Virus record (IMG/VR): IMGVR_UViG_3300047372_000064
Location: 1 to 44,315 of that record
Length of the DNA: 44,315 nt
Source of the DNA: a virus
Reading direction: 5' to 3' (one strand)
Below the pieces are notes generated by a model, which was not told where the DNA came from, made no database searches, and worked only from the letters and a program-made list of their open reading frames with translations. The translations under genes and the position numbers were made by a program. Below are positions 3,702 to 41,911 of the stretch, piece after piece. Numbering within the stretch: the stretch's first letter is position 1; each line of letters opens with the position of its first letter.

Positions 3702-3737
3702 GTTGCTTCCTTTCTGTTTTGGTTTCGGTTTCAGTTA

Positions 3738-3765
3738 AGCACTCCTATCTCTCTCTGAGAGATAG
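3738..3765 (-). promoter_or_regulatory. hairpin motif upstream of the CobS-like operon, copy 1
   Basis: A perfect 9-bp stem (3745-3753 with 3757-3765, loop TCT) sits 37-64 bases before the CobS-like start. Together with the flanking AGCACTCC it closely matches a second element at 5487-5513, also upstream of a leftward gene. The shared part, read leftward, is CTCTCAGAGAGA, then 5-6 variable bases, then AGTGCT. It may be a leftward promoter element or regulator site. No convincing sigma-70 boxes overlap it. Confidence 0.45.
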
Positions 3766-7784: not shown

Positions 7785-7820
7785 GACGACAAACAGCTTA
7801 GTTTTTAGGATTATTATTTC

Positions 7821-9710: not shown

Positions 9711-9967
9711 TGCCAGAGCAAAAAGCATATCAGCTAGAGCCACTTACAGGTTTTACGCCGCATGAAAAGAATTATATCAAAGCTCTTATCAGGGAAGCAA
9801 TCGCAGAGATTCCAGCACCTACACCTTCGTCTTGCAACTGTTCAGGGCAAGTTGACGGCGTGTCAAGACGAATCTCAGACCTTGAGGCTCGCTACGTTGA
9901 GGACGACAAATACGTTATAACTAGGGCAAAATTAGCTGTGTTCATGAAAGAAGAGGGCATAGAATAA
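9710..9967 (+). CDS. small protein, 85 aa, coupled to portal
   Basis: Starts on the last base of the portal stop (TAATG) and ends the same way into the next gene. A helical N-terminal part (PHEKNYIKALIREAIAEI), a short Pro/Ser/Cys linker (PAPTPSSCNCSGQ) and a C-terminal heptad-like helix (VSRRISDLEARYVEDDKYVITRAKLAVFMKE) suggest a small trimeric or chaperone-like virion accessory protein. No family recognised. Confidence 0.65.
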   Translation: MPEQKAYQLEPLTGFTPHEKNYIKALIREAIAEIPAPTPSSCNCSGQVDGVSRRISDLEARYVEDDKYVITRAKLAVFMKEEGIE

Positions 9968-12800: not shown

Positions 12801-12809
12801 GAGACAGAC

Positions 12810-14963: not shown

Positions 14964-14970
14964 GGCGGTC

Positions 14971-15234
14971 ATGGCAAACGAAACTTTTACATCCTTGTCT
15001 AAACAAGAGTTAGAGTCTCTTTTGGCAACAGCGGCAGAGCGTGGTGCAAAAGAAGCATTGTGCAAGGTTGGGTTGCATGACGAGGAGGCTGGTAACGATA
15101 TTCGTGACTTACGAGTTTTGGTTGATGGGTGGCGTGGCATCAAAAAAACTGCTACAAGAACATTTGTACAGTGGTTAATTTTATTTATCCTCGGACTTAT
15201 AGCGATGGGCACATGGCAAAACTTTCACAAGTGA
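14971..15234 (+). CDS. small C-terminally anchored membrane protein, DUF6127-like, 87 aa
   Basis: An N-terminal soluble part has SLSKQELESLLATAAERGAKEAL and the conserved-looking VGLHDEEAGNDIRDLRVLVDGWR. It is followed by a basic linker and one membrane helix at about 65-82 (FVQWLILFILGLIAMGTW). I associate this pattern with a small phage protein family (DUF6127) of unknown role, sometimes suspected to be holin-like; this assignment is from memory. The ATG at 14971 is seven bases after the propeller stop. Confidence 0.7.
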   Translation: MANETFTSLSKQELESLLATAAERGAKEALCKVGLHDEEAGNDIRDLRVLVDGWRGIKKTATRTFVQWLILFILGLIAMGTWQNFHK

Positions 15235-15512
15235 GCAATAAAAAAGCACTAGAATTAGTGCAAGACGTACAGAAACACGATGGCTGGTTATTTATCAAAG
15301 AAATCATGCAAGACGAAATAATGACCGCCGCGCACAAGTTGGCAGAAACTCCACAAATGAGCTTGGAGGAACTGCACTTTAGGCGGGGGGCCATGTGGGC
15401 CGCTCGAAAACTAATCGATGTACCGACCATACTAGCGTCAAAGCTAGAAAACGATGTAGCAATGGAAGTGCTACAAGCCGAGGAAGTGTACAAAGGTACT
15501 AAAACAAAATAG
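15213..15512 (+). CDS. hypothetical protein, 99 aa, upstream of scaffold
   Basis: The start is taken at the ATG at 15213 (MAKLSQVSNKKALEL), which overlaps the membrane-protein gene by 22 bases; a longer frame upstream reads antisense-like, poor sequence. The product is helical and charged (DVQKHDGWLFIKEIMQDEIMTAAHKLAETPQMSLEELHFRRGAMWAARKLIDVP). Such short helical proteins directly before the scaffold are common in podovirus-type genomes, but I do not recognise the family. The ribosome site is weak. Confidence 0.6.
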   Translation: MAKLSQVSNKKALELVQDVQKHDGWLFIKEIMQDEIMTAAHKLAETPQMSLEELHFRRGAMWAARKLIDVPTILASKLENDVAMEVLQAEEVYKGTKTK

Positions 15513-15515
15513 CAT

Positions 15516-15547
15516 GCTACGGCTTGCGCAAACAGTCCGCTACGGCT
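15516..15547 (+). repeat. direct repeat GCTACGGCT x2 before the scaffold gene
   Basis: GCTACGGCT occurs at 15516-15524 and 15539-15547, 23 bases apart, in the short gap before the scaffold gene. An eight-base copy (GCTACGGC, 16682-16689) appears in the gap after it, inside the right arm of a hairpin. The spacing and the non-coding location suggest a regulatory role, unproven. Confidence 0.4.
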
Positions 15548-15563
15548 GACAGGAGAAAAAAAC

Positions 15564-16631
15564 ATGAACGACCTAGTAGAACAAATCGCGGCTCAGAAGC
15601 TCGGCGAAGCAACCACACAGCAAGTCCAACAACAAGTGGCGCAAGACGCGGCTCAAGCCGAAGCGGCACAACAACCACCAACACCGGGAGCAGATTCAGC
15701 CACGCCAGCCCCAACCGAACAGGAGCAGGCCAATGCGGCTATCTCACCCAAAACAGAGGGAGATAGGCAGGCCGATAGCTCATATATTACGGTAGACTTT
15801 GGCGATGGTGATGTACGCACCATGTCGGATATGCAAGTCCGTGAAACTATGAAGCGTTACAAAGACCTAAATTACAAACATCAGACCCAATACGCACCCA
15901 TGTCAGCACCCATGGATTTCATCAATGAGATTGCTGGGAACTTGCAGGCGCAGGGACAAGACGTTAATGGTGATGAGATTGCACAGTTTCTTCGTGCGGC
16001 ATCACAAGCGTTTGTATCAAACCCAACCATGGGCGGGCAAGTAGACCCAACCCCAGATACCATGGGCATCCCCCTAGATGCTCTTGAGCAACAAATGGCC
16101 GCATGGGAAGATGAGAACGCTGTTTCTCTGCCGCCTATGTACAAAGATGCGGCTAGGCAGATGGGTCAGTTGCAGTCTGAAAACCAAGAAATTAAGCAAA
16201 TGCTCGCGCAGATTGCTGGGCAAGCAGGGGACTTGAACATGCAGGCGGCTGAACAAGTCAAAGATGCCGCTATGCAACAGAACAACGCCGCACGGCAACA
16301 GGCCGCGAACAATCTAAACGTGGCACAGCAGAAGTATCAGCTTCCTGACCAAGACGAACAGGACTTCTTTAACTTTGCCTTTGAACGCGGATACACCATC
16401 GAGGACTTTATTGACCCCCGTCTTACAGACATGGTTATGGCTGATTTCTCTAACAACAGGAACGGCCCTGAGATGGATAGGCTCAGGCAAATGGCGGCAC
16501 GAAGGCAGGCGTACACTGGCCAAGTTGGCGCAACACCAGCCGCTGGCGGACAGCCAGAAGCACCAAGCCAAGACGAACAGTTTATCGGTGCTGTCGCACA
16601 GCAGGCCATGCAAAGACGAAACATGGTCTAA
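15564..16631 (+). CDS. capsid scaffold protein, 355 aa
   Basis: Directly precedes the major capsid gene and has scaffold composition: Gln/Ala-rich low-complexity ends, coiled-coil-prone helices (QMGQLQSENQEIKQMLAQIAGQAG, EQVKDAAMQQNNAARQQAANNL) and a central folded stretch (MSDMQVRETMKRYKDLNYKHQTQYAPMSAP). The C-terminal region (DRLRQMAARRQAY...AQQAMQRRNMV) is basic, as is usual for the capsid-binding end of scaffolds. It would direct prohead assembly and then leave. RBS CAGGAG seven bases before the ATG. Confidence 0.82.
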   Translation: MNDLVEQIAAQKLGEATTQQVQQQVAQDAAQAEAAQQPPTPGADSATPAPTEQEQANAAISPKTEGDRQADSSYITVDFGDGDVRTMSDMQVRETMKRYKDLNYKHQTQYAPMSAPMDFINEIAGNLQAQGQDVNGDEIAQFLRAASQAFVSNPTMGGQVDPTPDTMGIPLDALEQQMAAWEDENAVSLPPMYKDAARQMGQLQSENQEIKQMLAQIAGQAGDLNMQAAEQVKDAAMQQNNAARQQAANNLNVAQQKYQLPDQDEQDFFNFAFERGYTIEDFIDPRLTDMVMADFSNNRNGPEMDRLRQMAARRQAYTGQVGATPAAGGQPEAPSQDEQFIGAVAQQAMQRRNMV

Positions 16632-24060: not shown

Positions 24061-24501
24061 ATGATAAGAGACGCGGAGCATGACGATGTTGAAGAGTGTT
24101 TGGAATTGGGTCACAGAATGTACTTGGCAAGCCAGTACAGCAGTCTCCCTTGGAGTTCGGAAAAGTGTAGGCGGCTTGGCCATGCGTTTGTCGAACGCGA
24201 AGACCGCTACTTCAAACTTTATGAAAAAGATAATCGCCCAGTTGGCTTCTGTATGGGGGGGATTGAAGACCTCATTTTTAGCGAAGAGCACATGGGCAAA
24301 GAATACTTGTTGTTCACTTCTGAAGAAGTTCCGTTGGTGGGACTAAGGTTAATGAGAGACTTTGAGAAGTGGTGTATAGGATGGGGTGTTATGGAGATTG
24401 ATTTTTCCACAACATCGCAAGGAGAAGACGAGCGGTTTGAGGCTTTCGCAAATCGTCTTGGATATCGCCAAGCTGGGCGGCATTGGAAAAGGAGACTGTA
24501 A
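24061..24501 (+). CDS. GNAT-type N-acetyltransferase-like protein, 146 aa
   Basis: Length and layout fit a single GNAT domain: an N-terminal IRDAEHDDVEECLELGHRMY, then strands YFKLYEKDNRPVGFCMGGI (the usual beta2-beta4 hairpin) and a C-terminal WGVMEIDFSTT...FEAFANRLGYRQAGRHWKRR, which matches the usual end helix and LGY-type motif. The pyrophosphate-binding loop (R/Q-x-x-G-x-G/A) is not well preserved, so activity is uncertain. Starts one base after the previous stop and shares its last base with the next start. Its target is unknown; a virion protein is plausible from position. Confidence 0.72.
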   Translation: MIRDAEHDDVEECLELGHRMYLASQYSSLPWSSEKCRRLGHAFVEREDRYFKLYEKDNRPVGFCMGGIEDLIFSEEHMGKEYLLFTSEEVPLVGLRLMRDFEKWCIGWGVMEIDFSTTSQGEDERFEAFANRLGYRQAGRHWKRRL

Positions 24502-26733: not shown

Positions 26734-27537
26734 ATGTCATTTGGTGATGTGCTCGGCGCAGTAACAGGGAATAGTTTTCTTGGTGATATAGGTCAGGCTG
26801 GTTTCGACATGTACAATTCTGTGCAGGCGAACAATGAGCGTGAGGAAGTGCGCCAACAGCAAAATGCAATGACCCGCATGAGGCTACAGCAAGAAGCCGC
26901 AGAACGAGCCGAACAGGTTGCGTTGCGTAACAGGCTTTTACAGCAGTCAACCAACCTTTCTGAAGCACTCGGCAATGTGTACAATTTTCTTGGCATGCCA
27001 TATCAAGCAGACCCAAGACGAATTACACAGGACTACCTCGCTCTACGAAATCAAAACTACGGTGATGTAGACAGACTCCTTACAATGATAGGCTCAAAAG
27101 GCACCGCAAGCGCAATAACTCGTGGCGTAGAGGGCGGCGTGATGGACTTCGAGAAGCAACAGCTTGCTCGTAAGTATAGCGATGTTTACCAGAAGGCAGA
27201 CCAAAGCGCATACGATGCCTCTATCGCTCGCAACAAGTCTTTGGTGGACACGCTAAACACCAGCAGACAAAACACAGTGGGCGAGATAAAAGATTTGTAC
27301 GGCACGCAGTTCGAGATGGAGAAGGGTCTCTACAAGGGTAGTTCTGGAAGAGACGCCACTAGCGCACTGAACCAGATGTCACAGGACTCCTACAAGGTCG
27401 CTGACAGTGCTACAGACATGATGGGCAAGAGCTTCGGTGCTGTAGTAGAGCGATTAGAAAAAGACGCATACGACCAAACCGTTAAACAAACCTTGGCGAG
27501 AGCAACTCAAAACCAAGGGGCACCAATTTTTACATAG
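26734..27537 (+). CDS. helical internal virion protein, 267 aa
   Basis: After a short glycine-rich hydrophobic start (GDVLGAVTGNSFLGDIGQAGF) the chain is almost all helical, with long Gln/Arg/Glu-rich segments (NNEREEVRQQQNAMTRMRLQQEAAERAEQVAL) likely to form a coiled coil. A lower-complexity end (ATQNQGAPIFT) follows. This build is like the mid-size internal virion proteins of T7-like and P22-like phages. RBS TTAGGAGG eight bases upstream. No specific family. Confidence 0.65.
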   Translation: MSFGDVLGAVTGNSFLGDIGQAGFDMYNSVQANNEREEVRQQQNAMTRMRLQQEAAERAEQVALRNRLLQQSTNLSEALGNVYNFLGMPYQADPRRITQDYLALRNQNYGDVDRLLTMIGSKGTASAITRGVEGGVMDFEKQQLARKYSDVYQKADQSAYDASIARNKSLVDTLNTSRQNTVGEIKDLYGTQFEMEKGLYKGSSGRDATSALNQMSQDSYKVADSATDMMGKSFGAVVERLEKDAYDQTVKQTLARATQNQGAPIFT

Positions 27538-27545
27538 GTTAAAAT

Positions 27546-29795
27546 ATGGCATTTTACTACGGCTCAAAAGAACAAGGATTTAAGTCTGGCTACGAAGGTC
27601 AGATTGACCGTATGCGCAATCAGCGCATCAAAAACAAAGAGCTATTTGATAACTGGAAAAAAGAAAAACTGCGGAATGGTGAAAGCGTTTCCGTAGATGA
27701 CCTTATACAGCAAAGGGAAACGCTTGCTGGTGGGGATAATTACTTTTTGTCTGGGCTTGTTACTGATGCAGAGTCAGAGAACATGGCCAAGCGTCACAAC
27801 GAACAAGTGGCCAGTAAAATAATTACTGAAGCTACAGGCAATATGGAGAACCAAGTAAAGCAACAAAACATCTTTGAAGACGCGATAGGTATCAAAGACG
27901 GAGTGACCTACAACGATTATGTAAAGGACGCTTCTCGCTTTTTTGGCGGAGACGAAGCCGCCGCAAGAACTGCTTTTGACGATATGGGCGGGGAAGATTG
28001 GTTCAATAACAAACAGATAGAAAAACGCTCGTTGAAGGCTGAGGATTTAATTGCTAACGACAGCCGCTTTACCAGAGCCCAGAGCCCAGAAGACCTCAAA
28101 AAGTATTTTGGCAACGAGCCTGCGGATGTGCAAGCCGACATATTAGCGGCATGGAAAAAGGGTGAAGACGACAAGAGGGCGGCAGAGGTTGACAAGGTTG
28201 AGGGTTACATTGCGGCACTAAACAGCGACACGCTTTTGTACTCTGATGATGCCCAAATTAAACAAATGATAAGAGGCCAGTATCTAAACATAAGTGATAC
28301 CGACCTAGATGGTTTGGTAAGTTTCTGGAAGGGCCAACAAGCCTCTCTAAGGACAGCCAAAGGCAATCAGCAAAAGTCAGCCTTCCTAAAAGAGATTGGC
28401 TCAGACAAAGAGCTGTTAAAGATATACGGTCAACAAGGTGTAGACCCTTCAGATATCATGACACGAATAAACGAAATTGGCCGGAAGTATGACTTCTTGA
28501 GCGAAACAAACTGGTCAACCATGGATGGGTTTGAAAAGTGGATAGGCGATGATGCTTGGCTAGAGAACACCATGAAGAAGGGCTACACAGGTCAATACGA
28601 AAGTCTTGAGGAAAAGCTAAATAGCACCGCCGTGGAAAGCGGAAAGGCGGCATTAGACAGAAGCATGACTACGGTTACTCAGGAAGTAAATGATATACGC
28701 AGAGCAAATAAAGAAGCTGGAGATGACGCGCCAAAAGAAGACTTGGCGTTTGAAGAAGGCGGCGTGGCATCTGCGGCGTTAGCAATCGTTGGAGAGAAGT
28801 ACATTCTAAGGGCTGGAGGAGCACAAACTATAATCTCCCACGCCAGAGAGCTTGTAAAAACAGACCCCAACATTGGCACACAAACTCTTGCCAATGCACT
28901 TGAAGCCCTACTGATGGACGGCAACCAGCTACAGACATTGTCTGAATACCAAGAGTCTTATGTACAACAAGGTCTTGAAGGGGAAGGTTATTCTATAGCA
29001 CCGGGCGAAACTGTACAGGCTTACGCTACAGATTTGACGACCTCTGTGGATGCAGTTATAGAAGAAATTAGCAAGACGTTACAGAACGCGCCTTCTGGTA
29101 GCTATGAAATAGTAAACGGCAGAACAATCTGGTTCGGGGATACTGGGGAATCTGCGGCATACCAAACAGCGGTTACTGACATCAAGGCTATGATTTCTGC
29201 TGTAAAGAAAGACTTTAATAACCACAAGTCAGCCCTATTTTCTGACATGGAGGGGCAAGTAGAGATAGATGGGGTCATGTATAGAGGCTCAGATGCTGGC
29301 CAACCTTTAATAACTATGCTGGAAGAAAAGCTGAAATCCCTTGAGGCAATACACAAAACAACAAAGCCAACACCAAGAACATCTGGTAGCACTAACCCAG
29401 CCACTGGTCTTGCCAGCGATGTTGAGACAGACTATGGCTCTTTGGGTGTTGACCAGAGTTCAAGACTGCCAAAAGATTTTGACTTTATGCCAATGAACGA
29501 CACTGCTGTAAATGCCTCATTTGTTTCACAAACAATGGAAGGACTATTTGACCAAGACCCACAGATACTTGCTGTGGCTCAAACAATTATCAGCAACCAA
29601 GGGAACCGTAGCATAACCGAGGTTGCAAGACAGCTTAGAAACCTTATCGGCTCTCCAAAAACCAACGAGCGGACTAGACCGGGCGGTCAGGGTTTCTGGA
29701 TACACAGGCAAGGTGCTGAATTTGCACCCGGCGAAAAGAAATTCTACACTAAACTCGCTCGCCTCCTACAGGCGGAAGCGTTTTCGGATGAGTAA
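27546..29795 (+). CDS. large helical internal virion protein, 749 aa
   Basis: Mostly helical and charged, from an amphipathic N-terminus (YYGSKEQGFKSGYEGQIDRMRNQRIKNKELFDNWKKEK) through repeated helices, with a moderately hydrophobic mid part (GGVASAALAIVGEKYILRAGGAQTIISHAREL). A C-terminal linker (TTKPTPRTSGSTNPATG) precedes a small end domain (QTMEGLFDQDPQILAVAQTIISNQGN, KKFYTKLARLLQAEAFSDE). Position just before the giant polyvalent gene supports an ejection role. No catalytic motif is evident. It is not a recognised family. Confidence 0.65.
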   Translation: MAFYYGSKEQGFKSGYEGQIDRMRNQRIKNKELFDNWKKEKLRNGESVSVDDLIQQRETLAGGDNYFLSGLVTDAESENMAKRHNEQVASKIITEATGNMENQVKQQNIFEDAIGIKDGVTYNDYVKDASRFFGGDEAAARTAFDDMGGEDWFNNKQIEKRSLKAEDLIANDSRFTRAQSPEDLKKYFGNEPADVQADILAAWKKGEDDKRAAEVDKVEGYIAALNSDTLLYSDDAQIKQMIRGQYLNISDTDLDGLVSFWKGQQASLRTAKGNQQKSAFLKEIGSDKELLKIYGQQGVDPSDIMTRINEIGRKYDFLSETNWSTMDGFEKWIGDDAWLENTMKKGYTGQYESLEEKLNSTAVESGKAALDRSMTTVTQEVNDIRRANKEAGDDAPKEDLAFEEGGVASAALAIVGEKYILRAGGAQTIISHARELVKTDPNIGTQTLANALEALLMDGNQLQTLSEYQESYVQQGLEGEGYSIAPGETVQAYATDLTTSVDAVIEEISKTLQNAPSGSYEIVNGRTIWFGDTGESAAYQTAVTDIKAMISAVKKDFNNHKSALFSDMEGQVEIDGVMYRGSDAGQPLITMLEEKLKSLEAIHKTTKPTPRTSGSTNPATGLASDVETDYGSLGVDQSSRLPKDFDFMPMNDTAVNASFVSQTMEGLFDQDPQILAVAQTIISNQGNRSITEVARQLRNLIGSPKTNERTRPGGQGFWIHRQGAEFAPGEKKFYTKLARLLQAEAFSDE

Positions 29796-29957: not shown

Positions 29958-32900
29958 ATGGACAATTCAAAATCACGTTGGTCGCGTAAGCCCGTAGATG
30001 TTAGCCGCTATCAGGCAAAAACAGCAAAACAAACAGGCCCACTTGGATATGCGCAGGGGCTTTCCAAAATGGAAGCTGTGGAGATGCTCTCCGACAGCCG
30101 CTTCCTCCAAGATGTAAAAGACTTCTACTATCAAAGAGATGGCCGGATGTTCTCTTCAGACGAAGAGGCTGTTGAAAAGTTTTGGTCTGATAGAACTTGG
30201 CGCAACTCAAACGTACTTATGACAGGCGTTGATGCCATTGCATCACAAGGATACACCACAGAACAAAAAGAGCGTCTAGGTAGAATACAGACAGTATTCG
30301 ACAGCAACCCCAATTTCTGGGAAGACGGTGGCCGAGGCGCAGAGGGTTTCTGGGCAAACGCCGGAGCAATGCTGTTAGACCCAACAAACCTAATTGGTTT
30401 TGGTATTGGTGGTGTCGGCGCGAAAGCCGCCGCGAAGGCCGCGACTATGGCAGGCCGAAAAGCTACAGGGTATGAATTAGCAAAAGCAGGCTTTATTCGA
30501 GGCGGTGCTTCAGAAGCCGTTGCTTCAGGCGGAATAGAGGCGGGAGCAGACGCTCTCGTCCAAAACAGGGACATGTCAGTTGGTATCCAAGACGAATACA
30601 GTCTTGGCAGAACAGCAATGGCTGGGGGTATTGGCGCAACAGTTGGCGGTGGTATTGGTGGCGTTCTTGGTGGTCTCGCCCCAACAGTTGGCAGAAAAGC
30701 CAGTGAGCTAACAGGCATAGACAAGCTAGACTTTATCAAAAGTGGAGAGGCCGAAGGTCGCGTAGAGTTACAAAGAATTGAAATGGAAAATGCGGCAAAA
30801 GCCGCACAAGAAGAAGAAGCCGCGCAAGATGTAGATGGCCTGTTTGGTGAGTACGACACTCAGTTGCGCAAGAACGCAGAAAACGGACAAGATGTTTTGT
30901 CGAATGTTGGCCTGCGTCCAGATGTAAATATTTCTATAGAAGCTGGTTCAGGTAGGTACAATACAGCAGAAGAGTTTGCTGAGGCTGTTGGTGTTGACTT
31001 AAACAGCCCTGACTTTGCGCAAGTAAAAGATGTATTTGACCAAATAAAACTACGCACCGAGCACCAAAGAATGAAGTCTGTGCCATCAGAGGTGGCCAAT
31101 CTTCGTGCGCAAGCTGACAAAGCACAAGTAAACTCTGCCCGTGGGGATGCGGCGGCAGACCCCAACAAAATTGATGCGAACATAACTAATGCACAGGGCT
31201 ACCGTTCAAGAGCTAACTCCCTTGAAGCGGCCTATGACAGGTACACAACTTGGTTACGCTCTGGTGCCTTCAGGAATGATGATGTTCCTCCACCTGATGT
31301 GCGCAGTGCTATGGATGAGGTTACTGGTCTTCTTGGTAGAGAGCCAGAAACAGGAGTTGTCCCAGCCAATCCTCGTGACCGAGGAGATGGCTTTACCATG
31401 CGTGATGACGCGGACGCTGATGCTGTTCAACAGCAACGTGCGGCTCGTGGGCTAGACGACCCAACAATTCCTCCATCCCGGCAGATACCTGAAGCACCTC
31501 CGGGGCCACGAAACGTATCGGGAGATGGATTTGAAGCAGTTGTTGACACATCTGAAGCGGCACAGACCACAGCACCGAGGACAGCCGCAGAGGCAGAGTT
31601 GTCCAACGCCAAAGAAATGTACGACAACACTCTCGCAAAGCGAGACGAAGCACACCGTGCAATCAAAAACCTTCAGGCAAAAGCAAGACGAGGCAGTATC
31701 GGGGAAGACGAGACTGCCGAACTCTCAGACCTTATCAAAACTAGAGCACAGCTAAGAAAAGAACTGAAGCAATCTTCTGTTCGCGTAACAGCCGCTGAAA
31801 ACGCTCTGTCAAAATTGGCTAACGATATAGTCGATGACATTACAGACACACCAACGCAGATGGTGGAGGAAGGTGCTGAAGCACAACTTGCAGAAGCGGC
31901 AGAGGGAGTCCTTGAGACCGATGCACCTATTGCCGTTGAAAGAACCCTTGAAGACGGTGCTATAGAAACAGCCAAAACGGAAGGCGAGACACTTGCCTTC
32001 TTGGATGCGCTTGGCTTTGACAAGAAAAAGATGCGCAGAGAAGTTCGCGCCCTAACGAACGGCGTTACAAGAGCCGAAGCTAGGGTTATCAGAGCTCAGT
32101 TTGCTACAGAAAAAGTGAACCGACTTCATGCCGCGAGCTATGTTCAGCAAGCTATTGATATGATAGGCGGCGTGGACAAGCCAGAAGTTTATATCATTAG
32201 TGCAATGCGCTCTGTTATCAAGAGCTTGGACATGGAGCCCGGAGTAGAGGAGTTAGCTCTTGATGTTTACAATGACTTTGTTATCGACAATGCTCCGTCA
32301 ATCTTAAACCAAGTTGTTGAAGGTATTGGCCTTGGTAGGTCGGTAGATGATTACTTTGATTTCATTCGCGTCAACTACGGCGATGAGTTGGTCGATGTGT
32401 TGCACCGACACATGCGCGGCGAACTTGATACTTTAGACCGTATCGAGACCAGCAGAATTGATATGCCAAAGATTAGTGACTTTACTCCGTCAGAGCAAAA
32501 GGCACTAAAAGAGGCAATGGATATATTGCAGTCAGATGGCCGCACGCAGGGATGGAACAAGTCTGCGATACAAATGTTTGCAAACCAGTTCATTGCAAAT
32601 CTAAGGCAGAAGAAAGCTGATGGGATTAACCCATTCCGTGATGGTGCTCATGAGGGTAAAAGCGTAGAGAGCTTTGGCACAATCACAGTAAACGGAAAAG
32701 AATACTCTGGCCACAAGCTGGGAAAAACGCAATCAATCCTGTCCCCCGCAAAAAAAGGCAAGGGTGATTACAAGTATTACGGACAACTCATCTCCGCACT
32801 AAAGAGGGATGGAGTAACTATGACTGGGCGAGAGGCCGCTTATCGTGCGGCGGATGAAGCCAAGTTGGAAACAGCCACAAACTCCATGCGGCGCGACCCA

Positions 32901-35900
32901 GTAAAATATAACAAGAAAACCGTTGACGGCGAAACGGTGCATGAAGGCATAAACGCTGAACCTGTTCGCAAGATTGATGAAGCCCGCAAGGCTTTGAAAG
33001 GCATAGACCCTACCGAGGATGCTACAGAAATCAGAGCATTACTCATATCCGAGGGCGTTATACCAAACGTAGAACTGGCCAAGTCGTCTTTCCGTCCACA
33101 GGAGATGGAGCTTGGAGACCCTATATCAATTAAGAGCAATTACCCAAAGAACGTGACAGGCTACAAAGCACTTTCTGGAAGCAAGAGAACAGACGGTTCT
33201 GTGTTCGTCTTGCGGCGTGCAATTCCTTTGACTGGTGAAGCACTCAAGAAAACAGCGGCAGGCAAGGTTCGTCTTGATGGCCCTCGTGTAGGCAGGGCAA
33301 CGATAAAAGTAATAACACCACAGGGTGTCAAAGAAATACCCAACCACGAGATAATCGATGGGATACTTTATGAGCGTATCCTAGCCTCCCCCGGACAGGA
33401 AACGGAAACCCCTTCTGGGTTTAACACTTTTAGTGGTGGCGACAAGGTTTTTGCAGACCCAAATTCAAAGCGTCTGTTTGCTACAGCGGAAGACATTCCA
33501 GAGAACCAGCGTGGGACAACTATTGAAGACCTGACGCAAGACCTCTTGGCACAACGAAAATTACTTACGCAAAGCACAGACCTAGAAATGAAGGCGAGGG
33601 ACATAGAGAACTTCCGCTCTTCTGATAGGGCGCAGTTTGAAGCCAAGTACCGTGAGTACAGAAACGCGGCACGCGAGCTACAAAAGATGAAAGAAGCAAA
33701 GGCGAAGCCTGTACAGGTTTTGGCTATGGAGCGTGCGGTACAGGCTAAAAAGAAAGAGATAAGAACAGAGTACCCAGAAATGTGGAAAGACCGCAAAGTT
33801 ATCAAGAAGGGCTTGGTTGAGCTTGAGCTTGCAAACAACGCGGGAAAAATTGACGATATGAAAAAAGAGGTTGCCGACCTAGCTGATGAGGCTGGAGACG
33901 CACCAACACCAGAGGACAAATCTGTAGCAAAGGTTGCCGCTGACAAGGCGAGCCAGCAGTATGCAGACGCCAACAAGGTCTCATTGGCCTACCAAGATGC
34001 TGTCGCTAGGTTCCAAGAACACGGTGACGCAAGGCTTCTTGATGAAGAGCTTGCCAAAATCAGGATGGAAGCCTCAAAAGTTTCCCATGAAAAACCTAAA
34101 ACAAAGCCACGGGCGAAGCGTATGCCCATGGTTGTTAAGCATCGTGGTGTAGAGGTTGACCTAGAAAACCATTTCTCCTTTACAGGAACGGAAGACGAGG
34201 GCTTCGACCTTGGTTTTCTTGGGCAAAAGATTGGACGCATAGAAAAAACTGAAGAAGGGTTCGAGGTTATCAGTGATGACCTTGATTCAACACCAGTTTA
34301 CGACAGCTTCGACTTGGCCAAGCGCGGCCTTGTAGACGATTTTGAGCCACGCATCAAGGTTGCTTTCAGAGAAGGCAAGCTGATGGCGGCTGATGCGCCT
34401 GAAGAGGTTAGCTTCCACGAGCCAAACCATCAGAACACAAATACATACAAGAACGCAAAACAAACTGACGCGGCAGACGAAGACGATATTGCGGAAAAGT
34501 TTCTCGGCTCTGACGAAAGGCTGAACCAGTCTGGCGCAGACTACTCTTCTCAAGTTCCTCCGGGGCGTAAGTTTGCTATCGGCATCAAGACAGGGCCGTT
34601 TGCTGGCGTTGCACGGGCACCAAGCACAGAAGAAAAGTTGGTTGGAGTTGTTCTTTCAAAACAGTCCGAACAAGAGTTCGTCTTGGGACATGTAGCGGAG
34701 GGAACAAACGGAACGAAGGCATCAAACTCTTTCATACCATTTGACCCTGAAGACAGCTTTGAGTCATCTACAAAGGGACAGGTCAAGAAAGAGAGAAAGC
34801 CTAGAAAGAACGAGTTACTCGAACAAGACCCAGACCTCGAAGACCCAGCGAAACAGGCGGTTTCCCTGAACAAGACGAGGGCAATGGACTTAGACCAAGA
34901 GGATTTGCCGGAGGACTTACAGGGCAAGTTCAAGACTGTCTATGACTTGCATGATGAGATAGTGAACCTTGAGCGTTTACCTTGGAACTCACCGCAGTTT
35001 GCGAGCAAGCAAGACTATCAGCGTTTTGTAATGCACTTGCGCACATTGAACGGCTTGCTAGACCAGTACGCCCCCCATGGTATAAAGCTACCAAACGCAT
35101 CTCGGCACGCATCAATGAGACAGCTAACTGCTGTTATGGGTGAGCGTCCAGTTGGTGAAATAAATGCGGTAATGTCTGTCCTTCGCAATCTTTCTGAAGG
35201 CGACAGTCGCATGCCAAGGTTTATCCAAGACCCTAACGCCTACTCACACAGACCAGCCAACTACGCCAATACAGCAGAGCTTAACTCTATATCTGTAGCT
35301 GAAGACTTAACCCCAGATGTGATACCCGGATTTGCGAAAACAATTCATGAGATTGGGCACTGGGCATACTTTAATGTATTGACCCCAGCGGAACGGTCTA
35401 CATTCTGGGATGCAATGGGTAAGTATATCACTGCCGAAGGCGTTGATATGGGCATGATAAAGAAAAGATTGCCTGAAATTGGTGGCAACGAGTTGCGTTC
35501 ACCACAAGAGTTCTTTGCACAGCAGTTTACACAGTTCGCAATCTCACAAAAGAGGGCTGGCGAAACAACTTCGTTAATGAAGCTCTGGACAAAAGTGGCG
35601 GAAAAAGTTCAAAAGATTATGCGTGCGTTTTTTATTGAGGATGCGGACGCTATTGACGCAGACCTAATGCCTATCTTTGAAAGAATACTCCCAGAGGATG
35701 ACGGCAGTGTGAACAAGTTCATGCAAGTCGCCAAAAAATACAGTGAGGCAGGCACAAGAGTTGGTTATCCAGCGCAAAAACTTGCTGTGTTTGAGGACAT
35801 TCGTCTTGAGATAGGGCGTGCTATCGACACTGGCAACGAAGACGCCATCGAAGATGCGCTTCGTGGCTTTGTTCGTGAGGTGTACGCATATTCTGGAAAG

Positions 35901-38900
35901 CCGGGCAACAAGACCATAACCAACAGAAACACCGGGAAGAAGATTAGCCGTGTTCGCCTCTTCGATGCAAAGCAAATTGGAGAAGCCGCAGACGGAACCA
36001 AGAAGCATGACTTTGTAAACTCACATTTTGTAAGACAAAACCTTGTGCAAAGAATGTACGCAATACAAAGGCACCTTGCAGAAAACCCAAAGAAGGTACT
36101 CAGCGAAGAGGACAGGTTGGCAGAGATAGACAAGCTGTTGGCCTCCCAAAACTCTGATGACTTTGGCGAATTAAACAGAGCATCAATGACATCAACCGTC
36201 ATGGAAGCCACCGCCGCTGTCGCAGAGGACGCAAGCGAAGGGTTGGTTCTTTTAGCTAATGATGTTCTTGGCTCTATAAATGAAGCGCAAACAGAACTTC
36301 GCAGACGTATTGCAAGAAGCGTGGGCAAGACAGACACAGGTGCTGGTGTAAAGATTACTCCAGAAGGCAAAGAGGTCGCCACACAAGATAGCGTGAAAGG
36401 CAACAAGTTCAGAAAGCGTGCGCAGAAGAGAAAGCAATCTGTTGCAGAGAACGCAGAGCAAAGCGTACAAGACACACTAGCGAAGATGGAAGCCGCAATA
36501 TCTGGCATGCCTAGCAAGATGTCAGCACCACAAAGTGGCGCGGAGACACCTAGCCTAAAAGGCGAGAGCGTTATTGGCTTGCTAACAAGATACAAAAAGA
36601 CAAGAGCCGACAGCCCAGAGAAGCGTGAGATTGCTCAGGAAGTTGCAAACAGAATGGCGGCACGGCCAGAGCTAACTCCTCTGGAAGAGTTGCCTATGGA
36701 TTTGCAGACAGAGTATTCTGACAAGTTCAAAAAGGAAACAATGTCCTTACACGAGGCTATTGTCGGTATGCAAAAGGCAATGGACGATGGCGACCTAGTA
36801 AAGGCTCACCAATACCAGAGCTTTGTTGGTGCGGTTTATGGAACTTTAGAAATACCAAGCATGCTTCGGTCTGTTCACAAGGCTATTGACACAGAGACGA
36901 GCCACAACTTCGGCTCGCAGACAGAGAATGGCGTGCCATCAAGTGCGCCGCAAGCTGTCAAAAACGCTCTTGGCCTAATAACACACAGAGACAAGCGAGT
37001 TGAATACACAGGAAGAACAGTTCTCTATCGTGTACTAAACCTTATGGGTAAGGCAGAAAAAGACTTGGTAAATCAAACCGAGTTCCTAACCTTTGCAGAG
37101 CTACAAAACATTATAGGTAATGTAGCAAGTGAAGCACCAAAAAGTGCAAAGCGTGCAATGGAAGTGATGGACGAGAGCTATGGCACTTACCTTGGGCAAG
37201 AGGGTGCGAATAGAAACAACGCTCTCATGAACGCCTTGAGAAAGCACTTCAGAAAGATAGGAACAAACATATCAAAACAAGGTGCGCCTCTCCGCCTCGT
37301 GGCTTCTGGTGCACAGAACGCAAACACTGGCACACAAATAAGAACAGCCCTTCACGAAGTTGGGCACATGCTTGTTCGCACAAAGTTTGACGAGCCAAAG
37401 ATGCAACAGTTGCGGAAGTTCCTTGACGACAAGCTAGACGCTGGAGACGAAACAGCGAGCAAGTTTGTTAAGAACTACGGGACTGAAGCGGCGGCAGAAG
37501 AGTATTTTGTTGATGAGTTCGCCAAGTGGATGGCAGGCCGTGTTTCTGCACAAGACGCATTTGGAGAAGCCAACTTACAGAACGGCATGATGCGCATAAT
37601 AAAAGAACTTGGCGAAATGGTTGCTTACGTCATGAACGGCTTGGTGAGAAACAAGACAATGCGCCAAGAGTTTAGAAGTCTTACAGGGTATGGCGACATG
37701 TTCCGCGTAAGAAAGCGGGTACAGAAGCCGACTGTACAGGCCGTAGCGTCAACAGACAGCTACTCTATGCCTGCAACCCTAGCACCAAGATATGCACAAG
37801 AAACATTGGCGAACATGCCCGATGGACAGCGCATTTCAGCAAGAGAATTTGTTGGGGCACGCGAAGGCGAAGACCTTATGGACTTTGTTTACTATCACGG
37901 AACACCAAACGGAAGGGCGTTTAGCAGAGCAGAAAACCCTGATGTCGTCTTGGAGCCTTCAGGGAACCAGTCTCTTTACGGGCCGGGAATATATGTGACA
38001 AAGAAGCAGGGTGTTGCTGAAGACTACTCTGTCATAGGCCATAGAGCTTCGTTTGAAAGAATGATTAACGAAGCAACAGATGACCCTGCAAAGCGTGCAG
38101 AAGGCGCAGAACTAACATCAATGTTAATCAACGCTCGTGAGGAAATAAACACCATACAGCGCGAGATGAATAGCACGCAGTACAGTCAGCAAACTCTTGA
38201 CAGAGCAAAGCGCATTACCAGTGGCGAAATTGAAGACTACAGCACAGACGGCTTTGATTACCAGTTATCCCAGCACCAGCGCAGACTGACAGACAAAGTT
38301 ATGGAAGAGGACGCTTTGTGGAAAGCGTTAGAAAAGGCAACTGGCGTTACAAGAAAGCCAGCGGTTCTTCCTCTTCTGGTTCGGGCAGACGAAACCTTTA
38401 ACATGGATGCAAACACCTTCTACAGATTTGGTGAAGGCACGAATAGTGTTAATTGGCTCATAGACGAAATGGCGAAGTCAGGGACTATTCCTACGGACGG
38501 TGCTATGAAAGTTATGCAACGCATTGGCACAAGAGACTTCAGCGGTGAAGACTTGTACGAAGCGTTGGTGGAAGGTGTGCGAGAGCAGGGCATCGGTGAG
38601 AATGATGCTAAGGCAGAAATAGCCGGGTTCTTGAAAGACCTTGGATATGACAGCATGCGTATCACAGAGGTAAACCCTAATAGCTCAGACATGATTGAAG
38701 CCTTAGTTCTGTTTGAACCAACACAGGTCAAACATGTTGACGCTCAAACATTCGATTACGAAAACCCTGAAATATACCAGCTTCGTCTTGGTGAGGGTGG
38801 GTTCTTGGGAGAGCTTGGAGAAGCTATCATAGACAACCCAGATGTAGACATTGCACAAATGCGTGCAACGATACTGAACGCCGCAGAAAGAATGGGTGCG

Positions 38901-41522
38901 CCCAAGCCTGTGCGAGAGTTTATAAACAAAACATCTAGGGGTGAGGCACTTACACCAAGTGATATAGAGGGTGTAAGCCGTTCGTACAAAGGAAATCTGC
39001 TTGGTGAAAACTCGGCTTTCTTCAGAAAGAATGGCGCGGCATGGATTGGAAACATACTAAAGCCATCCAATGGCGCGGGTCTTTTCCAGAAACATAACGC
39101 TGACCTAGCCAAGACACTTGGCCCAGTTCTTACAGCGTTGAGAAGCGTGCCCGATTACGGAAACTCCGCAAAGCGGTTCTTTGAAAAATCAAAAGGACTT
39201 GCGGCCCCACTAATGAAATCTGCAAGGCAGACGAAGCAACCAGCTTCGCATGACCGTATTATGCGTGCGTTGCGTCAAGACGATTTATCGTCTTTGTCTA
39301 CTGGTGAGCGTGCAATAGCACAGCAACTTGCTGATGTGTTTGCGCAAGAACTGGTTGACCTGAAAGCGGCTGGGTACAATGTTGGCGATGTCTTGCGGCT
39401 CGGCAAAAGATACTACATCCCACAAGCGTGGGACACTGGCATGATTAGGGACAACCCTCGTAGGTTCCTTAACATTATGACAGATAGGTTTATCAAAGAC
39501 AGACGGCAGGCTGGCATGCCAGCAGACCGTGCGCAGGCAGAGCTTGCGGCGAAGACTATGATGGAGCGCATGCTTGACACGGATGGTCGTATCGATACAG
39601 ACCCAATCCTCAACAAGAAGATGCAGTCTGACCCATTCTATCAGCGTATGATTAACCTTGACCCAGAAGAAATCCCAGAATTTGAGGAGTTCTTGGTGAA
39701 TGACCTTGAGGGTATTGTAACCCGGTACTTTGACAAAACTACCCGGAAGCTCGTCTTGGCAAGAGAGTTTGGCGTTCAGGGCCATGGCTTCATGAGCTAC
39801 CGTGCAGTAGCAGAGGGTGGTATAGAAGCCGCCATCAGAGTTTTGCAAACCAGCAAGATTGTAAAAAGTGTGCGAAGAGATATGGAGGTTGAGGCTGAGG
39901 TTGAAGATGTGGTTATCCCACCTCTTCGCAAAACCGATGAAGAAATCAAATCGATACTCACACAAATTCAAACTATGGTCGGCGGAACTACCGCACAAAA
40001 AACGGCGCAAAAGCAAGCCGCAATAGACTATCTGTTTAACAGTGGCGACCTGTCCAACATGGACATTGGCATGAGAAACAACTGGCGAAAGCGTTCAGAG
40101 GGAATTGTAAACGCTATCGCAGACTTCCCAATGCCAGCGCACGCAAGGTTGCTCAAACAAATGGACAAGATGTTCAACGCAATAAACAAGCGTCCGATTG
40201 ACGGAGGAGATGGTACAGAGCTTGTAGACAATGTTAGCCGAAAGGTTCGAGGCTTTAATGCAGTCACACTACTGGGGTGGACAACCCTTACGTCCGCACC
40301 TGACGCTGTATTGCCCCTAATCCGCAGTGGCAACTTTATGGCTTGGCAAAAAGGCATGAGACAAATCATGCAGAAAGACCCATCATATAGGCAGGCGGCA
40401 CGAGACATTGGTGTAGGCATTGAAAACCTAATCCACGACCGCATGACGCACATGTCTGGCGAGGGTTCACAAAGATTCACAAACGCATTTTTCAATGCGA
40501 CATTGCTAACGCCTTGGACTAACTTCATGCGAGAGGCATCCGCAATCGTTGGCTTCAATGCTATGAAAGCAGAGGCAGACACTGCAAGACGGCTCGCACA
40601 ACAGGGCAAGTTTGGAACCAGATACAAAACAGCAGTCAGGTTCTTGGCGAGATACGGTCTGGAAGATTATGCTGACCCTCAAGGGCCACAGCTTATGGAT
40701 GTTACACAGCATGTGCGAGACGACAAGATACGTTACGCAATCATGAGGTTTACCTCTGAGACAATCTTTACTCCAGACCCGAACGACATACCTTTGTGGT
40801 CACAGACACCTGTTGGAAAAATTGTATTCCAGTTGAAGTCTTTCCCAGTAATGATGCAACGCATGGTCTTCGGTGAAGGCGGTGTAATGTCTGAGGCGTT
40901 TGGCAAAAACACAGACGGAACATACAAAGGAAACTTTGGGCCGCTCCTAGCCTTGGTAACTGCGGGCTCCGCTTTCGGTGGCGGGTCTCTTGCGCTAAAG
41001 GATTTAGCACAGTCTCGTGGCGGTGATGACGATAGAAGCCGTGAGCTTCGCAACAGAAAGATTAGTGACACAATCTTTGCAGACATTGCCAAAGCCATGG
41101 GTGTAGACCCGAAGGACTACGCTGGCCGTCCAGACGAACTGGTAGGCTGGTGGCTTGAGGGTATTGTGGCTGTCGGTGGCCTCGGCTTCCTCGCAGAGCT
41201 TATGTACAACTCCGCAGAGCAACTGGACAACGGAGCATACGGAGCCACAAGAATAGCCAGTGGCATACTTGGCCCCGGCGTAGGCAACTTTATGGATGTT
41301 ATAAATGTCGGTGCTGGAATCGAACAGGGTCTTCTTGGAGACGGAGACAGCGCAGGGAAGCAACGCCAAGCGGCAAGAACTGTAGCTGGAAGAGTGCCAG
41401 TGTTGGGTGGTGTTCGTAGCTTCAGAGAAGGCGCGGCAGACTTGATGGGAGACCCAAGAAGCACGAGCAAGAACGGGCCAAAAGTAAAAGACCCATTAGC
41501 TAAATGGAAAAAAGATATATGA
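29958..41522 (+). CDS. giant polyvalent protein with two zincin and one ART-like domain, 3854 aa
   Basis: Residues 125-245: Gly/Ala-rich hydrophobic stretch, membrane-active looking. About 555-620: coiled coil. 1797-1801: HEIGH, then FFAQQF (E1851), a zincin-type metalloprotease. 2466-2470: HEVGH, then EEYFVDEFAKWM (E2515 or E2520), a second zincin. About 2640-2930: ADP-ribosyltransferase-like region with YYHGT (H2647), GPGIYVT (Y2679) and LFEPTQVKHVD. 3400-3600: helical domain with GWTTLTSAPDAVLPL and VFQLKSFPVMMQ. 3660-3800: further hydrophobic Gly-rich segments. Large proteins with a chain of such domains are known as polyvalent proteins and are thought to enter the host with the DNA. Last structural gene before lysis. 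GGAG precedes the ATG. No virion RNA polymerase motifs were found. Confidence 0.82.
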   Translation: MDNSKSRWSRKPVDVSRYQAKTAKQTGPLGYAQGLSKMEAVEMLSDSRFLQDVKDFYYQRDGRMFSSDEEAVEKFWSDRTWRNSNVLMTGVDAIASQGYTTEQKERLGRIQTVFDSNPNFWEDGGRGAEGFWANAGAMLLDPTNLIGFGIGGVGAKAAAKAATMAGRKATGYELAKAGFIRGGASEAVASGGIEAGADALVQNRDMSVGIQDEYSLGRTAMAGGIGATVGGGIGGVLGGLAPTVGRKASELTGIDKLDFIKSGEAEGRVELQRIEMENAAKAAQEEEAAQDVDGLFGEYDTQLRKNAENGQDVLSNVGLRPDVNISIEAGSGRYNTAEEFAEAVGVDLNSPDFAQVKDVFDQIKLRTEHQRMKSVPSEVANLRAQADKAQVNSARGDAAADPNKIDANITNAQGYRSRANSLEAAYDRYTTWLRSGAFRNDDVPPPDVRSAMDEVTGLLGREPETGVVPANPRDRGDGFTMRDDADADAVQQQRAARGLDDPTIPPSRQIPEAPPGPRNVSGDGFEAVVDTSEAAQTTAPRTAAEAELSNAKEMYDNTLAKRDEAHRAIKNLQAKARRGSIGEDETAELSDLIKTRAQLRKELKQSSVRVTAAENALSKLANDIVDDITDTPTQMVEEGAEAQLAEAAEGVLETDAPIAVERTLEDGAIETAKTEGETLAFLDALGFDKKKMRREVRALTNGVTRAEARVIRAQFATEKVNRLHAASYVQQAIDMIGGVDKPEVYIISAMRSVIKSLDMEPGVEELALDVYNDFVIDNAPSILNQVVEGIGLGRSVDDYFDFIRVNYGDELVDVLHRHMRGELDTLDRIETSRIDMPKISDFTPSEQKALKEAMDILQSDGRTQGWNKSAIQMFANQFIANLRQKKADGINPFRDGAHEGKSVESFGTITVNGKEYSGHKLGKTQSILSPAKKGKGDYKYYGQLISALKRDGVTMTGREAAYRAADEAKLETATNSMRRDPVKYNKKTVDGETVHEGINAEPVRKIDEARKALKGIDPTEDATEIRALLISEGVIPNVELAKSSFRPQEMELGDPISIKSNYPKNVTGYKALSGSKRTDGSVFVLRRAIPLTGEALKKTAAGKVRLDGPRVGRATIKVITPQGVKEIPNHEIIDGILYERILASPGQETETPSGFNTFSGGDKVFADPNSKRLFATAEDIPENQRGTTIEDLTQDLLAQRKLLTQSTDLEMKARDIENFRSSDRAQFEAKYREYRNAARELQKMKEAKAKPVQVLAMERAVQAKKKEIRTEYPEMWKDRKVIKKGLVELELANNAGKIDDMKKEVADLADEAGDAPTPEDKSVAKVAADKASQQYADANKVSLAYQDAVARFQEHGDARLLDEELAKIRMEASKVSHEKPKTKPRAKRMPMVVKHRGVEVDLENHFSFTGTEDEGFDLGFLGQKIGRIEKTEEGFEVISDDLDSTPVYDSFDLAKRGLVDDFEPRIKVAFREGKLMAADAPEEVSFHEPNHQNTNTYKNAKQTDAADEDDIAEKFLGSDERLNQSGADYSSQVPPGRKFAIGIKTGPFAGVARAPSTEEKLVGVVLSKQSEQEFVLGHVAEGTNGTKASNSFIPFDPEDSFESSTKGQVKKERKPRKNELLEQDPDLEDPAKQAVSLNKTRAMDLDQEDLPEDLQGKFKTVYDLHDEIVNLERLPWNSPQFASKQDYQRFVMHLRTLNGLLDQYAPHGIKLPNASRHASMRQLTAVMGERPVGEINAVMSVLRNLSEGDSRMPRFIQDPNAYSHRPANYANTAELNSISVAEDLTPDVIPGFAKTIHEIGHWAYFNVLTPAERSTFWDAMGKYITAEGVDMGMIKKRLPEIGGNELRSPQEFFAQQFTQFAISQKRAGETTSLMKLWTKVAEKVQKIMRAFFIEDADAIDADLMPIFERILPEDDGSVNKFMQVAKKYSEAGTRVGYPAQKLAVFEDIRLEIGRAIDTGNEDAIEDALRGFVREVYAYSGKPGNKTITNRNTGKKISRVRLFDAKQIGEAADGTKKHDFVNSHFVRQNLVQRMYAIQRHLAENPKKVLSEEDRLAEIDKLLASQNSDDFGELNRASMTSTVMEATAAVAEDASEGLVLLANDVLGSINEAQTELRRRIARSVGKTDTGAGVKITPEGKEVATQDSVKGNKFRKRAQKRKQSVAENAEQSVQDTLAKMEAAISGMPSKMSAPQSGAETPSLKGESVIGLLTRYKKTRADSPEKREIAQEVANRMAARPELTPLEELPMDLQTEYSDKFKKETMSLHEAIVGMQKAMDDGDLVKAHQYQSFVGAVYGTLEIPSMLRSVHKAIDTETSHNFGSQTENGVPSSAPQAVKNALGLITHRDKRVEYTGRTVLYRVLNLMGKAEKDLVNQTEFLTFAELQNIIGNVASEAPKSAKRAMEVMDESYGTYLGQEGANRNNALMNALRKHFRKIGTNISKQGAPLRLVASGAQNANTGTQIRTALHEVGHMLVRTKFDEPKMQQLRKFLDDKLDAGDETASKFVKNYGTEAAAEEYFVDEFAKWMAGRVSAQDAFGEANLQNGMMRIIKELGEMVAYVMNGLVRNKTMRQEFRSLTGYGDMFRVRKRVQKPTVQAVASTDSYSMPATLAPRYAQETLANMPDGQRISAREFVGAREGEDLMDFVYYHGTPNGRAFSRAENPDVVLEPSGNQSLYGPGIYVTKKQGVAEDYSVIGHRASFERMINEATDDPAKRAEGAELTSMLINAREEINTIQREMNSTQYSQQTLDRAKRITSGEIEDYSTDGFDYQLSQHQRRLTDKVMEEDALWKALEKATGVTRKPAVLPLLVRADETFNMDANTFYRFGEGTNSVNWLIDEMAKSGTIPTDGAMKVMQRIGTRDFSGEDLYEALVEGVREQGIGENDAKAEIAGFLKDLGYDSMRITEVNPNSSDMIEALVLFEPTQVKHVDAQTFDYENPEIYQLRLGEGGFLGELGEAIIDNPDVDIAQMRATILNAAERMGAPKPVREFINKTSRGEALTPSDIEGVSRSYKGNLLGENSAFFRKNGAAWIGNILKPSNGAGLFQKHNADLAKTLGPVLTALRSVPDYGNSAKRFFEKSKGLAAPLMKSARQTKQPASHDRIMRALRQDDLSSLSTGERAIAQQLADVFAQELVDLKAAGYNVGDVLRLGKRYYIPQAWDTGMIRDNPRRFLNIMTDRFIKDRRQAGMPADRAQAELAAKTMMERMLDTDGRIDTDPILNKKMQSDPFYQRMINLDPEEIPEFEEFLVNDLEGIVTRYFDKTTRKLVLAREFGVQGHGFMSYRAVAEGGIEAAIRVLQTSKIVKSVRRDMEVEAEVEDVVIPPLRKTDEEIKSILTQIQTMVGGTTAQKTAQKQAAIDYLFNSGDLSNMDIGMRNNWRKRSEGIVNAIADFPMPAHARLLKQMDKMFNAINKRPIDGGDGTELVDNVSRKVRGFNAVTLLGWTTLTSAPDAVLPLIRSGNFMAWQKGMRQIMQKDPSYRQAARDIGVGIENLIHDRMTHMSGEGSQRFTNAFFNATLLTPWTNFMREASAIVGFNAMKAEADTARRLAQQGKFGTRYKTAVRFLARYGLEDYADPQGPQLMDVTQHVRDDKIRYAIMRFTSETIFTPDPNDIPLWSQTPVGKIVFQLKSFPVMMQRMVFGEGGVMSEAFGKNTDGTYKGNFGPLLALVTAGSAFGGGSLALKDLAQSRGGDDDRSRELRNRKISDTIFADIAKAMGVDPKDYAGRPDELVGWWLEGIVAVGGLGFLAELMYNSAEQLDNGAYGATRIASGILGPGVGNFMDVINVGAGIEQGLLGDGDSAGKQRQAARTVAGRVPVLGGVRSFREGAADLMGDPRSTSKNGPKVKDPLAKWKKDI

Positions 41523-41911
41523 GCAAGTACGCAACAGAGTTCTTCACATACAATGAACTGAGATGCAGGGGCTGTGACGGCTCCTGTTCTTGGTCTAGTA
41601 ACGATAAGCCATTGTTCAATGTAGACGAAAGAGCTTTGGGCATGCTGTCAGAACTTCGCAAGCTCATAGGAAAACCATTCACACCGAACTCATGCACGAG
41701 ATGCCCGATACACAACGCTCGTGTAGGAGGGGCACCCAAGTCACAGCACAGGGCAACCTTTGACAAACCAGCATACGCCTTTGATGTGCCTCTGGTTGTG
41801 CCGAAAGAGGAAATAATCAAAGCCGCCGAAGAAGTTGGCTTCATGGGTATAGGCGGTAACTACAAAACATTTGTCCACATGGACGCAAGGTTGAGGAAAG
41901 CAAGATGGTAG
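41519..41911 (+). CDS. M15-type zinc peptidase endolysin, 130 aa
   Basis: A single small domain matching the Peptidase M15_3 pattern: RCPIHNARVGG, then SQH (H77), AYAFDV (D89) and FVHMD (H120), the three expected zinc ligands. Such enzymes cut the peptide bridges of peptidoglycan and serve as phage lysins. The N-terminus carries CRGCDGSC and residues 59 and 62 are also cysteines, more than usual for an enzyme of this size. No signal peptide is seen, so release needs the holin nearby. The ATG at 41519 overlaps the giant gene's stop (ATGA). Confidence 0.85.
   Translation: MSKYATEFFTYNELRCRGCDGSCSWSSNDKPLFNVDERALGMLSELRKLIGKPFTPNSCTRCPIHNARVGGAPKSQHRATFDKPAYAFDVPLVVPKEEIIKAAEEVGFMGIGGNYKTFVHMDARLRKARW

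Follow-up and report, generated by a model that had tools for sequence, protein, structure and literature searches.

Locus and source virus

The window, by which we mean the whole 44,315-nucleotide stretch of viral DNA analysed here, contains a single ORF of 3854 aa on the plus strand (29958..41522) that starts with ATG and takes up 26% of the sequence, in keeping with the first-pass annotation, which had described one gene filling a quarter of the window. It also occurs in another IMG/VR contig, 57,599 bases long (L002/L006), whose protein is identical over every segment compared, and further contigs hold relatives of the giant ORF at 87–100% identity; the gene is therefore no accident of assembly. 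A one-ORF architecture of 2917–4126 aa is shared by 57 non-redundant relatives. Counts out of 57 given below refer to these non-redundant relatives with an intact single ORF, and totals of 41, 36 or 45 refer to the sequences entering individual domain counts. Pfam and PHROG scans of the whole giant protein yielded no significant match, and alignments of the relatives were needed.

Comparison with Roseobacter phage CRP-810 shows that the TerL, portal and MCP of the window virus are 58%, 70% and 58% identical to those of that phage, and the portal and capsid protein are of the SU10 type. On these grounds we place the window virus among the CRP-810-type marine phages, with a predicted short-tailed (podovirus) morphology. 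The CRP-810-type family was proposed as new and consists of marine phages that mostly carry an integrase (PMC11288001).

The giant gene is preceded on the same strand by a gene encoding a 749-aa protein (27546..29795) that resembles T7 gp15 in size and position; no significant sequence match between the two was found. Upstream of this is a gene for a 267-aa protein (26734..27537, plus strand) that occupies the position of T7 gp14 and has a weak match to CRP-810 gp38. The 3′ end of the giant gene is overlapped by a gene for a peptidase M15, a probable endolysin (41504..41911, plus strand; PF08291, E 4.1e-13).

Several other features of the window have counterparts in CRP-810. A small GNAT acetyltransferase-like protein is encoded in the structural module at 24061–24501 (PF00583, 0.0023, just under the cut-off), and the structural module of CRP-810 likewise holds a GNAT gene (gp40). 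Just before the capsid gene lies a gene for a 355-aa protein (15564–16631) with 38% identity to CRP-810 gp46 and a weak Actin-family match (0.013). Between the portal and capsid genes, at 11004–14963, are genes for two adjacent proteins with matches to RCC1/WD40-like beta-propellers, which are likely tail or receptor-binding proteins; the corresponding place in CRP-810 is occupied by a 1,252-aa tail fibre gene.

Ejection-type termini and the variable segment

Residues 1–300 (29958..30857, plus strand) match proteins in 19 phage records by tblastn, most of them annotated as internal virion protein D (IVPD), and hhalign aligns this region with residues 31–261 of the IVPD of pelagiphage HTVC019P at a probability of 99.8% (E 6.7e-29). 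The domain is present in 57/57 relatives. By this homology, we regard residues 1–300 as corresponding to the N-terminus of the pelagiphage (T7-like) internal virion protein D. Within it is a Gly/Ala-rich segment (residues 130–245; 30345..30692, plus strand) that may be membrane-active, and a hydropathy scan places the N-terminal hydrophobic peak at residues 220–238.

At the other end of the protein, residues 3012–3854 (38991..41519, plus strand) constitute a T7-gp16-type ejection domain, identified through PHROG, hhalign and Foldseek comparisons. The window's C-terminus matches phrog_684 (virion structural; 1.2e-14) and phrog_16310 (3.4e-9); it has no direct match of its own to phrog_342, the T7 gp16 family, and the link runs through the relatives and through Escherichia phage TL-2011b. 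Fifteen of 41 relatives match phrog_342, the best at 2.2e-22. The phrog_342 match of T7 gp16 covers the full protein at 1355 bits, and that of the TL-2011b protein, which belongs to the PHROGs matched by the window (phrog_684 and phrog_16310), covers positions 203–1225 of 1235 at about 701–702 bits. The C-terminal profile of the relatives aligns with this ejection-type protein of TL-2011b (hhalign E 1.8e-22), and its match to T7 gp16 itself is weak (61%).

The C-terminal region was also modelled with AlphaFold2 (pLDDT 74). In a Foldseek search of BFVD, the model matches proteins described as 'large polyvalent protein associated domain' (TM 0.80–0.82) as well as internal virion proteins from several phages: Vibrio VP2 (5.5e-9), Bordetella BB8 (internal protein D; 7.8e-7), Xylella Cota, LKA1 and LIMElight. 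Taken with the profile matches, this identifies residues 3012–3854 as the core portion of an ejection protein of the T7 gp16 type. The first-pass annotation had noted that the gene sits where other phages encode internal ejection proteins, and that placement is made firmer by finding both ends of the protein homologous to ejection proteins, of the IVPD and T7 gp16 types respectively.

The hydropathy scan also reveals two C-terminal hydrophobic segments, at residues 3662–3680 (40941..40997, plus strand) and 3728–3746 (41139..41195, plus strand), and such segments are confined to the vicinity of the N-terminus (220–238) and to the C-terminus (3662–3746). We considered a T7-style basic C-terminal tail as a family feature and rejected it after comparing the relatives. 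Many relatives (for example L083, L137, L202 and L023) end in a Gly/Ser-aromatic repeat such as GWGSWGG, GFGGGGF or GGYKSGGYK; the window protein lacks this repeat and ends in PLAKWKKDI.

The protein thus shares with T7 gp16 (internal virion protein D, PHROG 342) its C-terminal domain, the C-terminal hydrophobic segments and a place after a gp15-sized gene, but differs from it in several respects. It has no N-terminal transglycosylase, with no SLT match found in the window by Pfam or PHROG and no alignment to the T7 gp16 N-terminus, and its N-terminal domain is instead of the pelagiphage type. The transglycosylase is, however, phage-specific, being absent from P22-type proteins, and does not define the family, whose C-terminal part is the conserved one (PMC8954989). 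The window protein also has ∼2,700 extra residues that include two HExxH domains and an ADP-ribosyltransferase (ART)-like domain. At 3,854 aa it is about three times as long as the largest of the gp16-like proteins in a published survey, which range from 609 to 1337 aa (PMC8954989).

A hypervariable stretch of ∼1,000 residues (301–1300; 30858..33857, plus strand) sits between conserved domains. For residues 301–700, a counterpart could be detected in few or none of the 56 other relatives, and for residues 701–1300 in close relatives only. A Pfam scan of residues 301–1300 of the window protein gave no match; in the corresponding segments of 45 relatives the same scan recovered an E3_binding-type domain (PF02817) in five (best 1.9e-11) and no other recognisable effector. 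The estimate of about 1800 residues preceding the first zincin with no assigned function, made in the first-pass annotation, is too high, and roughly 1,400 remain, since residues 1–300 belong to the IVPD family and the first HExxH domain begins near residue 1687.

HExxH and ART-like domains

The two HExxH domains expected from the first reading of the sequence are both present. The first, Z1, spans residues 1687–2002 (35016..35963, plus strand), as delimited by alignment to CRP-810 gp35, with HEIGH at 1797–1801 and E1851 as the third-ligand Glu. The second, Z2, spans residues ∼2301–2620 (36858..37817, plus strand), with HEVGH at 2466–2470 and E2515 as the likely third ligand. A third HExxH, HEPNH at residue 1487, shows no conservation and is in all likelihood fortuitous. 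An intact HExxH at a similar distance from the C-terminal domain is found in 52/57 relatives for Z1 and in 31/57 for Z2, a recurrence that makes the placement of these motifs more than chance.

In Z1, the HExxH and the downstream Glu are retained together in 36 of 41 sequences, and the other five have lost both, the Glu being replaced by K, R or Q; this joint loss in 5/5 cases marks E1851 as the third metal ligand. In 31/57 relatives, one of the two HExxH domains is dead. At least one is kept in 57/57 and none has lost both, although the tree has Z1 lost just once, so that the pattern of never having both dead is not statistically strong. Z1 and Z2 appear to be distantly alike, to judge from a profile comparison (76.8%, E 2e-5). 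Curated peptidase families in Pfam gave scattered weak matches only, in single relatives.

A predicted model of Z2 (pLDDT 83) has the HExxH and the Glu on two helices. It has no three-stranded beta-sheet before the HExxH helix, and the loop preceding that helix is of low confidence. The earlier description of two zincins is thus borne out as regards the metal ligands, both HExxH+E sets being present, but not as regards the fold of Z2, whose model is without the zincin beta-sheet. Because of this we describe Z2 as a predicted HExxH metallopeptidase-like domain and do not file it as a zincin.

The ART-like domain occupies residues 2630–2955 (37845..38822, plus strand), as defined by Pfam, the predicted model and the relatives. 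Its candidate active-site residues are H2647, Y2679 and D2898, which fall in or near the motifs YYHGT (2645), YGPGIY (2674) and GYDSM (2896), and a helical insert of ∼110 aa separates strands 2 and 3. The Pfam family ART-PolyVal (PF18760) matches the window at E 2.4e-5 and 25.5 bits, under the curated cut-off of 31.2, and matches 24 of 36 relatives, the best at E 2e-10. In the model, H2647 and Y2679 lie inside strands and D2898 lies immediately before or at the start of another. ARTs of polyvalent proteins have an H-Y-D active site with the His in strand 1, the Tyr in strand 2 and the Asp in strand 5 (PMC5512222), and the modelled residues of the window protein fit this arrangement (PF18760, Tox-ART-HYD2 clade). 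The ART-like domain proposed in the first-pass annotation is thereby strengthened by an H-Y-D set and a Pfam match, the latter below the cut-off in the window itself, with its activity a prediction. We also considered the Glu of IEALVLF as the catalytic residue and dropped it, as an E is found at this place in only 24/57 relatives, whereas the Asp of GYDSM is conserved and the published site is H-Y-D. Neither structural nor sequence searches of the PDB were informative, with nothing significant by Foldseek for either model (tankyrase-2, at E 2, does not count as a match) and chance hits only in sequence searches with three profiles.

A complete H-Y-D is found in 33/57 relatives and H-Y-E in a further five (38/57 together), and the triad is incomplete in 19/57; with about a third of the relatives having a broken triad, the ART is therefore not essential family-wide. 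Loss of the ART His accompanies loss of Z2 (14/15 versus 12/42; Fisher 1.4e-5), as would be expected if Z2 serves the ART. This coupling is suggestive, and it is not significant on phylogenetically independent pairs, with 3–5 independent contrasts on supported branches.

We estimated dN/dS by comparison with a relative that is 87–96% identical depending on the domain. The values are 0.02 for Z1, 0.07 for Z2, 0.034 for the ART and 0.041 for the C-terminus, all of them approximate since dS is near 1, and they point to purifying selection in every domain tested.

The counterpart in CRP-810 (gp36/gp35/gp34; OR671924; PMC11288001) has the same gene position and domain order, with identities to the window protein of 37.6% in the N-terminal domain, 28.3% in Z1, 28.9% across Z2 and the ART, and 34.5% at the C-terminus. 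In contrast to the single ORF of the window, the deposited CRP-810 genome has three ORFs in place of this gene. The gp36/gp35 break falls at a one-base frame difference, and the gp35/gp34 break at a tandem duplication of 31 bp, through which SMLRGRKLD occurs twice and the frame is shifted; the junctions lie at 24061–24089 and 30065–30111 of OR671924.1. This could be a genuine fission or could result from sequencing or assembly. Only gp36 is named in the annotation, as internal virion protein D, and the enzyme-like domains are not noted.

Against the 57 intact copies stand four split ones (CRP-810, L159, L164 and L203). In L159 the N-terminal ejection domain has an ORF of its own (902–2674; 591 aa) that lies ∼5 kb upstream of the remainder (7586–16198), an arrangement which suggests that the N-terminal module can function unlinked. 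A further copy of the giant gene resides as a prophage in the bacterial genome of Poseidonocella sp. HB161398 (L166; NZ_VATA01000004.1), and has lost both the second HExxH domain and the ART histidine.

Proposed role during infection

In our interpretation, a CRP-810-type podovirus has here turned its gp16-type ejection protein (internal virion D) into a polyvalent effector, most likely a self-processing one, and we hold this reading with moderate confidence. The IVPD-type N-terminal and gp16-type C-terminal domains would form part of the ejected trans-envelope conduit, and the ∼2,700 residues between them would pass into the host cytoplasm, like the central part of T7 gp16. T7 gp16 has two inner-membrane spans arranged as TMH I, a cytoplasmic part and TMH II (PMC8954989), and the hydrophobic layout of the window protein is similar; by analogy, the two ends would stay in the conduit and the HExxH and ART domains would reach the cytoplasm. 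One or both HExxH domains would most likely then cut the giant chain itself, so that the ART and the variable segment come free of the conduit, and the H-Y-D ART would probably go on to modify a host target at the start of infection. We infer the presence of the protein in virions, its cytoplasmic topology, the proteolysis (of itself or of other proteins), and the NAD-dependent activity with its target. Cutting of the protein by itself seems at least as likely as the processing of other virion proteins. DdrB of phage P1 offers a precedent for such autoprocessing; the N4 vRNAP, the best-known giant ejected protein with an HExxH domain, speaks against it, being packaged uncut (PMC5512222).

A more specific and rather speculative version, which we think unlikely, is that of a self-dismantling device. 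The conserved, membrane-anchoring ends would bring the protein across the envelope, Z1, which nearly all relatives keep, would cut off an exchangeable, host-tailored cargo of ∼1,000 residues, and Z2 would free the ART and be lost where the ART is dead. If this is true, the hypervariable segment, which is different in almost every phage, would be that host-tailored cargo.

The same domains could instead act before infection. The HExxH domains may function only in virion assembly, cutting the giant protein or its neighbours so as to fit the head, with no role in the host and with the ART as the sole effector or a vestige. In favour of this, DdrB of phage P1 cuts itself before packaging (PMC5512222), the three separate ORFs of CRP-810 indicate that separate pieces may be tolerated, and the chain has about three times the length of the largest published gp16-like protein (PMC8954989). 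However, N4 packages a 3,500-aa HExxH protein, its vRNAP, unprocessed (PMC5512222), and the cytoplasmic delivery predicted from the gp16-type ends fits later cleavage equally well. We consider a role confined to maturation possible if rather unlikely. It is quite improbable, in our estimation, that the HExxH and ART-like folds serve chiefly as scaffolding or as parts of a membrane or DNA conduit, with catalysis decayed or irrelevant. The dead HExxH domain in 31/57 relatives and the incomplete ART triad in 19/57 speak for such a structural role, but in the window both sets of metal ligands and the H-Y-D remain intact, purifying selection on every domain is strong, and no relative has lost both HExxH domains. 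Moreover, the third ligand of Z1 is lost together with its HExxH, so that they act like a single catalytic or metal site.

The N4 virion RNA polymerase also deserves consideration as a model, in that the window protein might be a virion enzyme both delivered like it and homologous to it. The vRNAPs of N4 and of the N4-like Roseovarius podovirus 1 (RPP1) are likewise giant ejected proteins, of the same size class, with an HExxH domain before a long helical C-terminus, and the roseophage vRNAP carries an ART as well (PMC5512222). In contrast to these, the window protein has no polymerase domain in any segment as judged by Pfam, and its C-terminus has no detectable sequence homology to theirs. 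We reject homology to N4 vRNAP, since neither the C-terminal nor the HExxH profiles match the N4 or RPP1 vRNAP, and consider this explanation most improbable.

The concept of giant multi-enzyme proteins with MPTase and ART domains, predicted to be injected as effectors, goes back to the work of Iyer et al. in 2017 on polyvalent proteins (PMC5512222). The window protein likewise combines MPTase-type HExxH and H-Y-D ART domains in one giant protein of the virion module, and it differs in having a mapped gp16-type C-terminal ejection domain and an N-terminal IVPD domain; no RNA polymerase, lysozyme, ParB or methylase domains were found in it. The delivery part is thus identified directly, as T7-gp16-type ends, and we see the protein as a large, well-conserved example of a known concept with a clearer delivery anatomy than is found in the literature examined. 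Its enzyme-like part was overlooked in the deposited reference annotation of CRP-810. This order of domains recurs in at least 57 relatives within a marine phage family of global distribution, for which a cultured isolate exists. That one isolate makes three points accessible to testing: a possible effector role for an ejectosome protein, its possible self-cleavage, and the target of a phage ART in the abundant marine Roseobacters.
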